Source of the DNA: Clostridium sp. BNL1100
Lineage (GTDB): Bacteria > Bacillota > Clostridia > Acetivibrionales > DSM-1351
Length of the DNA: 64,000 nt
Assembly (NCBI RefSeq): GCF_000244875.1
Contig: NC_016791.1
Location: 1,423,501-1,487,500 of the forward strand
Direction of reading: 5' to 3'
The position numbers and the translations under genes were made by a program. Below the pieces are notes generated by a model. It was not told the DNA's origin. It made no database searches and saw nothing but the letters and a program-made list of their open reading frames with translations. Shown piece by piece: positions 48,926 through 54,235 of the stretch (position 1 is its first letter; each line of letters starts with the position of its first letter).

Positions 48926-49534
48926 ATGGCTGTGGAAACCCGTACAGTAATCAGAGATGTCAGTGCAAGCCTAAAGGCTTTGATTAAAGCAAATGTTCCA
49001 GAATTAAATGATGACAGTTACATAACATTCGGTTCACCAAGCGATGTAGACTCAGCAAACATGACTCTTTCATTATGCTTGTATTACCTTACCGAAAGCC
49101 ATAGCATGAGAAACAGTGAGAGAGAACGTATACCAGGGACAAACCAGTTATTTGACCCTCCCTCCTATCTTGACCTGTATTATCTTATGACCCCATATGC
49201 AAAGGACAGGGATACAGAACTTTTGATTTTGGGAAAACTATTTCAACTGTTTCATGAACATGCTGTGCTCAGTGGAGATGATCTTAAAGGAAACCTGGTC
49301 GTATGCGGAAACGAACAAATAAGGATATCCTACAATAATTTATCACTGCAAGATATCAAACAGTTATGGGAGGTATTCCCGGGAAAACCGGCAAAATTAA
49401 GCCTGTCTTATCTGGTATCTGCGGTAAGAATGCCGGCTGAAAAGATTATTACATTCCCATTAATTACAGAGCAACCAACACCAAAATATTATGATTTAAA
49501 AACCCATACCGAATTATCTAAAAAGAATACATGA
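48926..49534 (+). CDS. DUF4255 tail terminator/cap protein (Pvc16-like)
   Basis: A 202-residue DUF4255 protein (ALIKANVPELNDDSYITFGSP, LCLYYLTESHSMRN, DLYYLMTPYA). In PVC and Afp particles the Pvc16/Afp16 protein caps the end of the sheath-tube and ends polymerisation. It has no gap to the ATPase gene (GAGGTGG precedes ATG 48926), so the two are coupled. Its length is normal for the family. Confidence 0.9.
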   Translation: MAVETRTVIRDVSASLKALIKANVPELNDDSYITFGSPSDVDSANMTLSLCLYYLTESHSMRNSERERIPGTNQLFDPPSYLDLYYLMTPYAKDRDTELLILGKLFQLFHEHAVLSGDDLKGNLVVCGNEQIRISYNNLSLQDIKQLWEVFPGKPAKLSLSYLVSAVRMPAEKIITFPLITEQPTPKYYDLKTHTELSKKNT

Positions 49535-49657: not shown

Positions 49658-51202
49658 ATGCCAAATTATTTATCACCAGGAGTTTATGTAGAAGAAGTTT
49701 CCAGCGGAGTGAAGCCGATAGAAGGCGTAGGTACAGCGGTGGGTGCTTTTATCGGAATTGCTGAGAAAGGTGTCATTGGTAAAGCTATTCTGGTTACTAA
49801 TTGGAGCCAGTATGTCAGTGAGTTTGGAGGATTTATCCCCAATGCATACCTTGCTTATGCCGTGTACAATTTCTTTGCGGAAGGAGGAACATCCTGCTAT
49901 GTTGTAAGAGCCGCATCAGAAGATGCAAAGAAGTCTTTTAGTATTGTAAAGGATGACCAGGGAGCAAACTTATTCGAAATCAGTGCCCGTTCTGAAGGAA
50001 ACTGGGGTAACAGAATTTCCTTTCAAATAAGCAGTTCAACAAACGGACAGATTAACGGCTTTAAACTTAATATCAAGTATACTGAGCAGAGTTCATTCAG
50101 CGATGAGTATGTAGGAGAAGATGTTGTAGGCGAACTTGTTGAAACATTTGACAATTTACTTATAACCAACTTTGAAGAGAAAATCAATGAGGTATCATCA
50201 TTTATCACCGTAACACCATTGGTGGATCTTAAAAAAGTTGATAACATGGACAAGGTTCCAATGTTTACAGAAGGGGATGAATTCACCGAATTGGGAAATG
50301 GCGTTGATGGAATATCATACGTAGAGTACATTGACAGTCAAAACCAAAAGTTGGGAATCAATGCATTTACACCTATAGACGAAATTAATATACTTGCAGC
50401 TCCTGACGTTGCAGATATGGAGGCTAACAGAAGCATTATTCTTGCAATGCTAAATTACTGCAAGAACAGAAAAGACTGCTTCTTCGTTATTGATCCTCCA
50501 CACGGCTTGACACCTCAGGAAGTAAAGGACTTCAAAGAGGGTGCAGGAGACTATGCAGGTAACTCATTTAACTCTTCTTATGGAGCATTGTATTATCCAT
50601 GGGTATTTATCAACGACCCGCTTACAGGCAAGAAAAAACTTATTCCACCTTCAGGTTCAGTTGTAGGTACATATGCATATGTTGATTCAGCAAGAGGAGT
50701 ACACAAAGCTCCTGCCGGAACTACCGACGGATACCTTGACACAGTAGTAGGTGTTGAAAAGATAGTAACTAAAGGTGAACAGGAACTTCTCAATCCTATA
50801 GGTATAAACGTAATCCGTTCTTTACCTGAGGGAATTTGTATCTGGGGTGCCAGAACTCTCTCATCTGATTCAGAATGGCGCTATATAAATATCAGACGTT
50901 TGATGATGTATATCGAAGAATCAGTTGACAAGGCAAGCCAATGGGTAGTTTTTGAACCAAATGAGCCAACTCTCTGGGGCAAGGTAAAGAGGAACATATC
51001 AGCTTTCCTGACAAGAGTGTGGCGAGACGGAGCACTCTATGGTTCCACCCAGGAAGAAGCCTTCTTCGTTAAAGTAGACGAGGAAAACAATCCTCCGGCA
51101 TCAAGAGATGCAGGTCAATTGGTAATAGAAGTCGGTGTAGCTCCTGTTAAACCGGCAGAATTTGTAATAATTAAAGTCAGCCAAAAGACGCTGTCAAAAT
51201 AA
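49658..51202 (+). CDS. Contractile sheath protein
   Basis: A 514-residue phage tail sheath homologue that forms the contracting outer cylinder. The N-terminus PNYLSPGVYVEEVSSGVKPIEGVGTAVGAFIGIA is a classic sheath start; the C-terminal domain (GICIWGARTLSSDSEWRYINIRRLMMYIEESVDKASQWVVFEPNEPTLWGKVKRNISAFL) is the conserved interlocking part. Only one sheath gene is seen, compared with three in PVC. An AAGGAGG site precedes ATG 49658, as expected for an abundant protein. A 123-base gap upstream may carry a promoter; I cannot identify it. Confidence 0.95.
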   Translation: MPNYLSPGVYVEEVSSGVKPIEGVGTAVGAFIGIAEKGVIGKAILVTNWSQYVSEFGGFIPNAYLAYAVYNFFAEGGTSCYVVRAASEDAKKSFSIVKDDQGANLFEISARSEGNWGNRISFQISSSTNGQINGFKLNIKYTEQSSFSDEYVGEDVVGELVETFDNLLITNFEEKINEVSSFITVTPLVDLKKVDNMDKVPMFTEGDEFTELGNGVDGISYVEYIDSQNQKLGINAFTPIDEINILAAPDVADMEANRSIILAMLNYCKNRKDCFFVIDPPHGLTPQEVKDFKEGAGDYAGNSFNSSYGALYYPWVFINDPLTGKKKLIPPSGSVVGTYAYVDSARGVHKAPAGTTDGYLDTVVGVEKIVTKGEQELLNPIGINVIRSLPEGICIWGARTLSSDSEWRYINIRRLMMYIEESVDKASQWVVFEPNEPTLWGKVKRNISAFLTRVWRDGALYGSTQEEAFFVKVDEENNPPASRDAGQLVIEVGVAPVKPAEFVIIKVSQKTLSK

Positions 51203-51224: not shown

Positions 51225-51668
51225 ATGGCAACAGGAAAGAGAAATGATCCATACAGAAATTTTAGATTCAGAGTAGTAATTGACGGTATTCAGATAGCAG
51301 CGTTTTCTGATGCAACAATTCCTGATATATCTACAGAAGCAGTAGAATACAGAGAGGGAACAGATGCACCTCATTCAAGAAAACTTTCAGGTCTTACAAA
51401 GTTCGGTAATGTAACCTTAAAGAGAGGTCTTACAGATACTATGGACCTGTACAACTGGCGTAAAGCAGTTGTACAAAAAGGTGCACTTAACAACAGAAGA
51501 AGCTTATCAATAATATTGGTAGATGAAGAAGGCAATGACAAAGCTCAATGGGATATCATTGAAGCATGGCCAATTAAATATGATGTTAGTGCATTAAGTG
51601 CAAAGGGAAATGAAGTTAGTATTGAAAACATTGAACTGGCACATGAAGGCGTATCAAGAGTTAAGTAA
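51225..51668 (+). CDS. Inner tube protein 1 (Pvc1/gp19-like)
   Basis: A 147-residue tube-forming protein of the gp19/Hcp-like fold (GKRNDPYRNFRFRVVIDGIQIAAFSDATIPDIS; VTLKRGLTDTMDLYNWRKAV; DIIEAWPIKYDVSALSAKG). It forms the rigid tube that is driven out by sheath contraction and through which cargo may be carried. It follows the sheath gene by 22 bases with GAGGAG upstream. A 205-base gap with a large stem-loop follows. Confidence 0.92.
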   Translation: MATGKRNDPYRNFRFRVVIDGIQIAAFSDATIPDISTEAVEYREGTDAPHSRKLSGLTKFGNVTLKRGLTDTMDLYNWRKAVVQKGALNNRRSLSIILVDEEGNDKAQWDIIEAWPIKYDVSALSAKGNEVSIENIELAHEGVSRVK

Positions 51669-51791
51669 GCTTAATCATTAGTCGGATTATTATTGAATTG
51701 ATAACATACTGCAAAATTAAATATTAGTATAAACGGTCAAATTTCAATAACTATCCTTTTATTGTGTATTTTGAGGAACAAAATGATGGTG

Positions 51792-51833
51792 AAGGTCGCT
51801 TCAACCCGGTTTTCAGGGTTGAAGCCGTACCTT
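51792..51833 (+). other. Stem-loop between tube and tail-assembly genes
   Basis: AAGGT, one unpaired base, then GCTTCAACCC (to 51807) pairs with GGGTTGAAGC (51816-51825), a short bulge, and ACCTT (51829-51833). It has no T-run. It divides the highly expressed sheath/tube genes from low-copy downstream ones and could slow RNA decay or cause partial termination. Confidence 0.6.
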
Positions 51834-51873
51834 ACATCAGTTAAAGGTAATAATCAAAAGAGAGGAATGTAGA

Positions 51874-52242
51874 ATGGATATTTTACAAACAGAATTTAAT
51901 TTTACACTGCCCAAAGGTTACGTTGACGATACAGGAACGGTACATAAGCAGGGAAACATGAGACTTGCTACTGCCGCAGATGAAATAATGCCCCTTCGTG
52001 ATGCCCGTGTACAGCAGAACCCGGCCTATTTATCAGTAATTCTGCTTTCACGTGTAGTAACAAATTTAGGTACGCTTAAAATGATAACTCCCAGAGTTAT
52101 AGAGGAGTTGTATACTTCCGACTTTTCCTATTTGCAGGAATTATACAACAGAATCAACCAGAATGGCTCTAATACTATAAAAACTAAATGTCCCAAATGT
52201 GATCACGCTTTTGAGGTTGAGGCTGAGATTCTGGGGGAATAA
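51874..52242 (+). CDS. Tail assembly protein (gp41-like, half zinc-ribbon)
   Basis: A 122-residue protein (LQTEFNFTLPKGYVDDTGTVHKQGNMRLATAADEIMPLRD...NPAYLSVILLSRVVTNLG) of the tail-assembly group found in eCIS and related phages between tube genes. The C-terminus has one CPKCDHAFEVE half zinc-ribbon. AGAGGAATG precedes ATG 51874. Its stop TAA lies directly before the DUF6760 frame, which is in the -1 frame; GGGGG at 52233-52237 precedes the stop. By position it resembles phage tail-assembly chaperones. Confidence 0.85.
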   Translation: MDILQTEFNFTLPKGYVDDTGTVHKQGNMRLATAADEIMPLRDARVQQNPAYLSVILLSRVVTNLGTLKMITPRVIEELYTSDFSYLQELYNRINQNGSNTIKTKCPKCDHAFEVEAEILGE

Positions 52243-52424
52243 CCGGCTACCCTCTCGACCGCCTCTACGAGGAGGTAGCCTTTTTGTCCTACTACCTGCA
52301 CTGGGATTACAAAACTGTGCTGGGTTTGGAGCATTTTGAGAGAGAACGCTGGTGCAGGGAAGTTAGTGAAATAAACAAGAAGCTCAACGGAGATGAGGGC
52401 AAGAAAGATTTCTTTGAGGTTTAG
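52239..52424 (+). CDS. DUF6760-like frame without a normal start
   Basis: 61 codons reading TGYPLDRLYEEVAF then LSYYLHWDYKTVLGLEHFERERWCREVSEIN match the small DUF6760 group found in eCIS clusters. No ATG, GTG or TTG lies upstream in frame after a TGA at 52224; the codon where a start is expected is ATA (52239), overlapping the previous stop. So it is made by -1 frameshifting at GGGGG (52233-52237), or from an ATA start, or from TTG 52284 without its conserved N-terminus. A hairpin (52245-52280) starts five bases after the slip site. Confidence 0.75.
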   Translation: MTGYPLDRLYEEVAFLSYYLHWDYKTVLGLEHFERERWCREVSEINKKLNGDEGKKDFFEV

Positions 52425-52433
52425 GAGGATACC

Positions 52434-52907
52434 ATGGCAAATATAGTAAATTTGGTAGAAAGAAGAAACTGGGTTCCCGGATACAGAAAAGATCCATACC
52501 TTACATTTAACTTTGTAGTAGAGATAGATGGTATTGCAGTTGCAGGATTTACTGATGTTTCAGGGTTGAGTATTGAAACTCAGGTGGAGCGTAAAACCTT
52601 CGGAGGAGAAAACCACAAAGAGTACACATTCTTAACTCAGACTAAATACAGTGATATAACTTTGAAACACGGAATTACGAATGACGACTATTTATGGAAC
52701 TGGTATCGGAGAGTAATTAATGGCAGGATAACCAGAAAAAACGGTTCAATTTGCTTGCTGGACCATTCGGGTAATCCGAAATTGTGGTGGGACTTTCTGG
52801 AGGCATGTCCTATTAAGTGGGAGGGTCCGGCATTTAGTGCCACAAGCAGTTCTATAGCTGCAGAAACACTGGTATTGACTCATAATGGAATAAACATGCA
52901 TAAATAG
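52434..52907 (+). CDS. Inner tube protein 2 (Pvc5-like)
   Basis: A second tube-fold protein, 157 residues (KDPYLTFNFVVEIDGIAVAGFTDVSGLSIETQVERKTFGG; TLKHGITNDDYLWNWYRRVING; DFLEACPIKWEGPAFSATSS). In PVC a minor tube paralogue joins the main tube to the baseplate hub, which suits this position. It follows DUF6760 by nine bases (TAGGAGG overlaps the stop), so it is co-translated. Confidence 0.9.
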   Translation: MANIVNLVERRNWVPGYRKDPYLTFNFVVEIDGIAVAGFTDVSGLSIETQVERKTFGGENHKEYTFLTQTKYSDITLKHGITNDDYLWNWYRRVINGRITRKNGSICLLDHSGNPKLWWDFLEACPIKWEGPAFSATSSSIAAETLVLTHNGINMHK

Positions 52908-52933
52908 AAAATACAGGGTTGGGACGTAAGTAT

Positions 52934-54235
52934 ATGATTAAAACAAATAAGTTAAACAAATTTAATACGTCCTTTGCACAAAATATACTGAGCAAATACG
53001 GTATCGGAAGGTGGAAAGGTCAATTTACCAGACTGATTTTCAGAAACAGCTCCGATATGGTTTTAGAATCCGGTGAAGGAAAAGAGCCCTTTAATTATAC
53101 TGAAATAAAAAGGTACAACACTTTACTAAAAGTTTATAAATATATAAACAATAATTCAACAAAAATAACACTACCAGGCACAACACGGACTGTCAGTTTT
53201 AAACCTTCATATAATAAATACGACAATATCATAAGTATTACAGCGCCAACGGAAATTAAGCTATATTCTAAAACCGAACCGACAAAACTCATTCAGAAAG
53301 TTCTATTGAATACCAATAATCAGGAACAAAAATACTTTTTTCATAGGCTCACTGAAAAAACAGGATCAGAACCATTAGACGATTTTACAGATGTAAAAAC
53401 AGGAACTGCCAGCTATAACAAATATTTTTACCATATTACAGATATTCAAAACAAAGAAAACGTTATCAATAATAAAACAACCGATACAAAGCTGATTGAT
53501 ACTGAAAGGGTAGTTATAAAAGAACCACGTGAGAATACAACAAATCAAAATATTCTTGAGAAAGAAATAATATATAAGAAGGATTACGAGAAACAAACAG
53601 TAGTACAGGAAGTGGATCAAAAGCCAGTAGTATCCGGCAACAAATATGTCGGGCAGAATAAACTAAACACATTGATTTACAATCTGTTTCCGGCAACAAA
53701 ATCTTTGACAGACAGGTTCTCTGGAACCATTGAAGACAGAACTATAAGCCAAACTACTATAATAAATAAGCTTATCACAAAGGAAAAGTACCAACATCCG
53801 GAACCAGGGGAATTGAATTCAGAGAGGTTTAATGTAAAGAATGATATTCCCACACAGAATATAATTCACAGTACACAAAAACAACAAATCAATCGTAATA
53901 TCCTTCGTGAGCATGAAATAATAGAAACAGACTTAGATGAGTACGAGAAATTTGTTCATTTTTTACCTCAAAAGAATGATAAAATTACTGATTTGGTTTT
54001 TTACAGGCCTCAGTTAAAGGAGAAAGATAAAAAAGAACAGGAAATAAAAGAAATTTTGCCAATGGATGTTATGCATGCAGAAAAAAATGTTTACGCTAAA
54101 GCAACCTCCCCGTCAAAGCCGGATAAAAAACTGCAAACCATAGGAAATGAGGAAGTAAAAGTACTTGCAGACAAAGTTTTTCAAATACTTGAGAAGAGGT
54201 TGACAATACAAAAAGATAGGAGGGGTCTTAGGTAA
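52934..54235 (+). CDS. Uncharacterised hydrophilic eCIS protein
   Basis: A 433-residue protein, rich in Lys, Asn, Thr and Gln, mostly disordered by appearance, with a short N-terminal basic part (IKTNKLNKFNTSFAQNILSKYGIGRWKGQF). No domain is recognised. It lies between the second tube and the LysM protein; its stop overlaps the next ATG by one base (TAATG). PVC has only the tiny pvc6 here. It may be a scaffold, a cargo, or a ruler for the tube; none of this is shown by sequence. ATG 52934 is preferred to TTG 52919. Confidence 0.75.
   Translation: MIKTNKLNKFNTSFAQNILSKYGIGRWKGQFTRLIFRNSSDMVLESGEGKEPFNYTEIKRYNTLLKVYKYINNNSTKITLPGTTRTVSFKPSYNKYDNIISITAPTEIKLYSKTEPTKLIQKVLLNTNNQEQKYFFHRLTEKTGSEPLDDFTDVKTGTASYNKYFYHITDIQNKENVINNKTTDTKLIDTERVVIKEPRENTTNQNILEKEIIYKKDYEKQTVVQEVDQKPVVSGNKYVGQNKLNTLIYNLFPATKSLTDRFSGTIEDRTISQTTIINKLITKEKYQHPEPGELNSERFNVKNDIPTQNIIHSTQKQQINRNILREHEIIETDLDEYEKFVHFLPQKNDKITDLVFYRPQLKEKDKKEQEIKEILPMDVMHAEKNVYAKATSPSKPDKKLQTIGNEEVKVLADKVFQILEKRLTIQKDRRGLR

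Follow-up and report, generated by a model that had tools for sequence, protein, structure and literature searches.

In Clostridium sp. BNL1100, a tail assembly chaperone gene and the DUF6760 frame that follows it meet at a junction which we regard, with high confidence, as a programmed -1 ribosomal frameshift site that would yield two forms of the chaperone. The junction lies in a stretch of 64,000 nucleotides (contig NC_016791.1, positions 1,423,501 to 1,487,500; hereafter, the window, numbered from its first letter). Judging from the homologous sequences, the same signal appears to recur in injection machines that resemble phage tails and occur in bacteria of several phyla; there, the second part has its own entry as a protein of unknown function. 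By its working, the device is of a known kind, the frameshift of phage chaperones; the injection system is a new setting for it.

Results

The chaperone-DUF6760 junction of the window

The upstream open reading frame (positions 51874-52242, plus strand) encodes a protein of 122 amino acids with a C-terminal CPKC zinc-ribbon-like motif; this protein matches the tail assembly chaperone family phrog_508 (E 1.9e-9), as do all 10 of its 10 aligned homologues. Its last codons are CTG GGG GAA TAA and contain a run of five G (52233-52237). The candidate slippery heptamer G_GGG_GAA, with GGG in the P site and GAA in the A site (52237-52239), occupies positions 52233-52239 and adjoins the stop codon TAA (52240-52242); the overlapping codon of the -1 frame is thus ATA (52239-52241). 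Starting at 52236, the -1 frame translates as GITGYPLDRLYEEVAFLSYYLHW... and ends with the codon TAG at 52422-52424; this DUF6760 extension (52236-52424, plus strand) matches PF20546 with E 5.8e-15 in the genome search and with E 8.8e-16 when the peptide was used as the query. A sequence-only reading of the window had already described the run of five G before the stop codon and a DUF6760 frame in the -1 register that lacks a usual start codon. A base-level check agrees with the former, and the latter is borne out, as the first usual start codon of this frame, TTG at 52284, is inside the conserved domain.

In the pathway that we propose, in which we infer the slipping, its frequency and the roles of the two forms in assembly, most ribosomes would stop at TAA and release the 122-aa chaperone, while a fraction would move back by one base on G_GGG_GAA, with the help of a downstream hairpin, and would make a 183-aa fusion that includes DUF6760; the efficiency of slipping would set the ratio of the short form to the long form. 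The heptamer is not a strict X_XXY_YYZ sequence, and re-pairing of the A-site tRNA with GGA needs a G-U pair in the middle position. Tandem slippage on GGG GAA would produce the tryptic junction peptide CDHAFEVEAEILGEITGYPLDR; a slip that occurs before GAA is decoded would produce CDHAFEVEAEILGGITGYPLDR.

Operon context

The families encoded together in the operon (PF17482, PF06841 twice, PF14065, PF19266, PF05954, PF04717 and PF04965) identify it, by sequence matches, as a probable eCIS/Pvc-type contractile injection system. A Pvc16-like gene at 48926 (Pfam) is followed by the tail sheath gene (49658-51202, plus strand; PF17482 with E 3.2e-19, and PF04984) and by a tail tube gene (51225-51668, plus strand; PF06841, E 1e-45). 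Downstream of the junction are a second tail tube gene (52434-52907, plus strand; PF06841, E 1.9e-44) and the genes of a CIS tube protein (54235), a hub (54861), a spike base (55904) and gp25 (57133), all by Pfam matches. The order around the junction is therefore sheath, tube, chaperone, DUF6760 and second tube gene.

Sample of related junctions

Related junctions were collected through whole-genome searches with PF20546, in which every tally counts the centre genome. Positive genomes numbered 18 of 60 in the set of the own genome and its relatives, 6 of 299 in the phylum set, 12 of 198 in a set centred on an actinomycete, 22 of 193 in one centred on a myxobacterium, 1 of 4 in a small set, and 6 of the 6 genomes behind fetched loci. 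A scan of contigs yielded 11 loci, and 18 of 34 matching plasmid records were fetched. We tabulated 91 loci in total and removed 11 repeats, for which identity of the junction was checked, together with L018 (a decayed copy with TAG between two parts in the same frame), L058 (Actinomycetota, overlapping ATG) and L083 (a form with a single open reading frame), which left 77 distinct junctions; L011, another decayed copy, is outside the table. The IMG/VR set supplied 12 further loci, among which L100 and L102, as well as L104 and L105, are seemingly identical at the junction. Ruminiclostridium species are close relatives, and R. papyrosolvens C7 has a DUF6760 peptide with 98% identity to the one encoded here.

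Conservation of the frame and of the slip site

In all 77 distinct homologous junctions, DUF6760 occupies the -1 frame relative to the upstream gene. A slip heptamer was defined as X_XXY_YYZ or GGGGGA in the zero-frame phase within the last 12 codons; by this definition, 72 of the 77 junctions contain one, compared to approximately 3.3 expected from the rate (330/7549) in other stretches of this length taken from the same frames. Heptamers in the wrong phase are present at 8/77 and 3/77 junctions. The -1 frameshift proposed by the sequence-only reading is thus supported across related loci. The 72 junctions include one haloarchaeal locus (L038), which was counted as slip-positive, despite its ATG, for in-phase A_AAC_CCA and G_GGA_AAC; when this locus is left out, the count is 71/76.

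The most frequent heptamer is GGGGGAA (45), followed by GGGGGAG (8), GGGGGGA (7), AAATTTT (3), TTTTTTA (3), GGGCCCT (3), TTTTTTG (2) and AAACCCA (1). The G-run type, to which the window belongs, accounts for 60 of the 77 junctions and is found in Bacillota (19), Myxococcota (14), Actinomycetota (21), and cyanobacterial (4) and proteobacterial (2) loci. Relatives also have A_AAT_TTT, T_TTT_TTA/G and G_GGC_CCT, which are strict tandem-slip heptamers and indicate that the signal is exchanged in evolution but remains of the same type. In the tree of chaperone and DUF6760, the A_AAT_TTT loci form one group (support 99/89), which belongs to a larger supported one of six loci that includes L032, L036 and L003; many deeper branches of this tree are poorly supported. 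The locus L003 (minus strand) carries in-phase A_AAT_TTT, T_TTT_TTG and G_GGG_GAA in a row, has no stop in the -1 frame between these sites, and is likely to be an intermediate in the turnover of slip sites.

In the IMG/VR contigs, an in-phase heptamer was found in 10 of the 12 further loci, and none was found in L104 and L105. The frameshift device is therefore not universal, given the 5 of 77 junctions and 2 of 12 IMG/VR loci that have no slip site.

Hairpin downstream of the slip site

A hairpin located 5 nt downstream of the A-site codon GAA (52245-52280, plus strand; -18.8 kcal/mol), a spacing inside the 5-9 nt expected of such structures, is the likely stimulator of frameshifting, and it folds as the sequence-only reading had described: 52245-52251 pairs with 52274-52280, and an inner stem is formed by 52253-52257 and 52268-52272. 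None of 200 dinucleotide shuffles was as stable, and 4 of 200 synonymous recodings folded equally well or better. For this latter comparison, the stretch after the slip site was recoded 200 times with local codon usage, and a locus was scored as passing at rank 10 or better. Passing loci make up 43 of the 60 in the G-run class, the window included (Myxococcota 14/14, Bacillota 15/19, Cyanobacteria 3/4, Actinomycetota 9/21, proteobacterial 2/2), with group mean z values from -1.7 to -3.1, and 5 of the 12 loci with other slip sites. Outside Actinomycetota, the valine of the stem is encoded by GTA in 33 of 37 valine codons; the background, which includes shadow reading frames, is 355 of 3113 valine codons in Myxococcota loci. 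At one position of the stem, 33 of 48 distinct sequences have a C-G pair and 9 have T-A, and several Actinomycetota have a different, shifted stem. The hairpin is well supported for the class of the window, and weaker elsewhere.

We also considered GAGG at 52219-52222 (plus strand), 10 nt before the heptamer and at a class-wide peak of duplex energy, as a possible internal Shine-Dalgarno-like stimulator. This candidate is not supported in the window: there, 74 of 100 synonymous recodings were equally good, and the signal ranked 10 or better of 100 in only 17 of the 60 G-run loci. A search of Rfam over positions 51600-53000 gave nothing above the gathering score.

Alternative explanations of the junction

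Under translational coupling, ribosomes that end at TAA would begin anew at the overlapping ATA, and DUF6760 would be a protein of its own; for the window, we consider this quite improbable. The overlap geometry is present, relatives with a TGA stop have ATGA or GTGA overlaps that are annotated as starts, and five Actinomycetota/Myxococcota junctions (L057, L059, L061, L062 and L079) have no slip site and only an ATG, GTG or TTG that overlaps the stop codon, so that coupling probably does work in those lineages. Against this explanation stands the observation that the type of stop fixes the overlapping codon: among the 60 G-run loci, TAA or TAG goes with ATA, GTA or CTA (35 loci), and TGA goes with ATG, GTG or CTG (25 loci). 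The overlap itself makes the apparent start a by-product of the stop that is used, whereas the slip site is kept across phyla; this also accounts for the GTG and ATG "starts" annotated in Streptomyces plasmids and makes an ATA start unlikely in the window. The sequence-only reading had offered an ancestral ATGA overlap mutated to ATAA, with initiation at ATA, as its alternative, and had pointed to homologues with ATG at this codon as a check. PF20546 matches were found in 8 of 10 same-genus genomes, at 9 places; the codon is ATA, never ATG, at all 9, and the G-run is kept, and the -1 frameshift reading thereby withstands the refuting condition that the sequence-only reading had named. ATA is set by the TAA stop and is probably not a start. 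Furthermore, 41 of the 77 loci have no ATG, GTG or TTG in the region 13-22 codons before the conserved HW motif, where a start would preserve the conserved N-terminal motif, and each of these 41 carries a slip site. Neither the phase of the heptamer (72 versus 8 and 3) nor the hairpin would be required for a separate start. In 27 of the 60 G-run loci, ATG, GTG or TTG is present besides the slip site, and re-initiation may provide a second route there. In the G-run loci L027 and L084, the stop is 8 codons further downstream, within the domain.

We attach almost no weight to either of the two remaining explanations. A formerly continuous gene could have been disrupted by a frame-changing mutation or a sequencing error, and copies of the junction that have decayed and contain internal stops do exist (L011 and L018, in the related genomes G053 and G039, respectively); still, both frames stay intact, and the frame relation and the slip site recur in 72 of 77 junctions from several phyla, a conservation that refutes gene decay. 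RNA polymerase could slip on the G-run, which is a homopolymer of five bases, and generate mRNA of changed length that encodes the fusion in one frame. Five bases are short for transcriptional slippage, the heptamers A_AAT_TTT and G_GGC_CCT of other lineages fit the re-pairing of two adjacent tRNAs and not slippage on a run, and the hairpin is at the distance expected for a ribosome, which all speaks against this explanation.

Among the Actinomycetota, L057, L058, L059, L061 and L062 have an overlapping ATG or GTG; all but L058 are in the count, without a slip site, and in these four re-initiation seems to replace frameshifting. A haloarchaeal junction on a Haloferax plasmid (L038), in which DUF6760 follows sheath and tube genes, has an ATGA overlap together with the in-phase G_GGA_AAC.

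Protein identities

Pfam has no family that matches the 122-aa chaperone above the cut-off, and its match to PF12322 is weak (E 0.084). A structure model of the chaperone (mean pLDDT 69) had no match in the PDB at E <= 0.001; in BFVD, it gave only weak matches to baseplate proteins (top E 2.8e-3), which are not evidence of a family.

DUF6760 weakly resembles, by profile and sequence comparison, the frameshift-made E' part of P2 gpE+E'. Of 14 DUF6760 members, 4 match phrog_1756 (best E 0.0018) and 5 match phrog_10636 (best E 1.3e-5), the families that are matched by P2 E' itself with E 1.4e-28 and 2.2e-5, respectively; the window's own DUF6760 matches neither. An hhalign comparison of DUF6760 with P2 E' gave E 8.6e-5 and a probability of 60. 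PF06528 was matched weakly by 3 of the 14 members (best 0.032, none over the cut-off), and phrog_634, "baseplate hub assembly catalyst", by 1 of the 14 (E 0.0078). A tblastn search with both parts against 50,697 phage records found no match at E <= 0.1.

The myxobacterial locus L083 (787-1656) contains, after a tube-like gene, one open reading frame of 289 aa with chaperone-like and DUF6760-like parts (PF12322, E 3.3e-5; PF20546, E 4.5e-5; both just below the cut-offs). This natural fusion supports a functional joined form.

Discussion

The closest parallel by position is phage P2, in which the sheath gene FI and the tube gene FII are followed by E and E+E' with an annotated -1 site, in the same order as here; together with the phrog_508 match, this equal place in the operon agrees with the parallel to phage tail assembly chaperones that was drawn in the sequence-only reading. 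P2 E' and DUF6760 have phrog_1756 and phrog_10636 in common. The systems differ in other respects: P2 gpE belongs to phrog_103/phrog_166, whereas the window chaperone belongs to phrog_508; the next gene encodes the tape measure in P2, but a second tube protein here; and the P2 site is TTTTTTG, in contrast to G_GGG_GAA in the window, although some of the relatives studied here have T_TTT_TTG or T_TTT_TTA. P2 is reported to have no hairpin downstream of its site TTTTTTG (PMC3091744), unlike the window. With the frameshifts of actinobacteriophage chaperones, the likeness is one of heptamer (GGGGGAA), -1 direction and chaperone function, as described in the PRFect paper (PMC10885494); those sites are in phages, whereas ours is in an injection-system operon. 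In that paper, GGGGGAA is the sequence of all "the thousand" fivetwo motifs in the SEA-PHAGES data, and their re-pairing is attributed to G-U (PMC10885494). A corynephage example is described as combining GGGGGAA with a predicted pseudoknot (PMC5506516).

The pair gpG/gpGT of phage lambda resembles the window pair in its working. Lambda slips on G_GGA_AAG. Its short chaperone and -1 extended form are made in a ratio that matters in tail assembly, and the haloarchaeal virus HCTV-1 has the site G_GGA_AAC, which is also in phase at the Haloferax junction, both according to a review (PMC5009743). For a phage chaperone cluster, a reporter study gives a value of 7% (PMC3711429).

T4-like hub and chaperone proteins are a more distant comparison, through the weak matches to PF12322, phrog_634 and a BFVD baseplate protein. 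The PF12322 and phrog_634 matches presumably correspond to T4 gp26 and gp51. A mechanism other than frameshifting is reportedly suggested for T4-like chaperones by the title of a paper. Our literature search, which covered neither subscription papers nor preprints, found no mention of DUF6760; among titles and the beginnings of abstracts, none dealt with frameshifting in such a system, and an earlier mention of frameshifting in injection systems is possible.

By analogy with lambda gpG/gpGT and P2 gpE/gpE+E', we would expect a core or ruler component to be bound by the short form, and tube subunits to be brought in by the long form through its DUF6760 part. In this reading, DUF6760 is the likely T-like domain, and the same analogy would give the pair a role in the control of length or assembly. 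We lean slightly toward a broader proposal, namely, that in many bacterial phyla, and perhaps in haloarchaea, contractile injection systems have their assembly or length controlled by a ratio of two chaperone forms set by frameshifting, with DUF6760 in most lineages being mainly the frameshift-made end of a chaperone. The frameshift at the junction would give DUF6760 a likely identity and mode of expression, a recoding device of phage tails would appear to persist in injection machines, and the setting of injection-system assembly and length becomes testable. If such a system were rebuilt in another host with the two frames split into separate genes, the natural products would be altered.

Annotation misreads such junctions. 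In the Rhodococcus locus L039, the annotated start of DUF6760 is inside the conserved domain; in the Brasilonema locus L044, no DUF6760 gene is listed in the PLSDB gene table, which is incomplete, so that this case is indicative only. Both are as expected if the pipeline finds no start codon.

Other features of the operon lie outside the junction. An open reading frame of 438 aa, which starts with TTG and has a high content of Asn, Lys and Thr, is present at 52919-54235, between the genes of the second tube protein and the CIS tube protein. Another, strong hairpin is located at 51787-51840, downstream of the first tube gene and upstream of the chaperone gene; the segment 51780-51850 folds with -29.1 kcal/mol (z -5.5), none of 200 shuffles is as stable, and no T run follows the hairpin, which could adjust the ratio of the tube protein to the products of the downstream genes.
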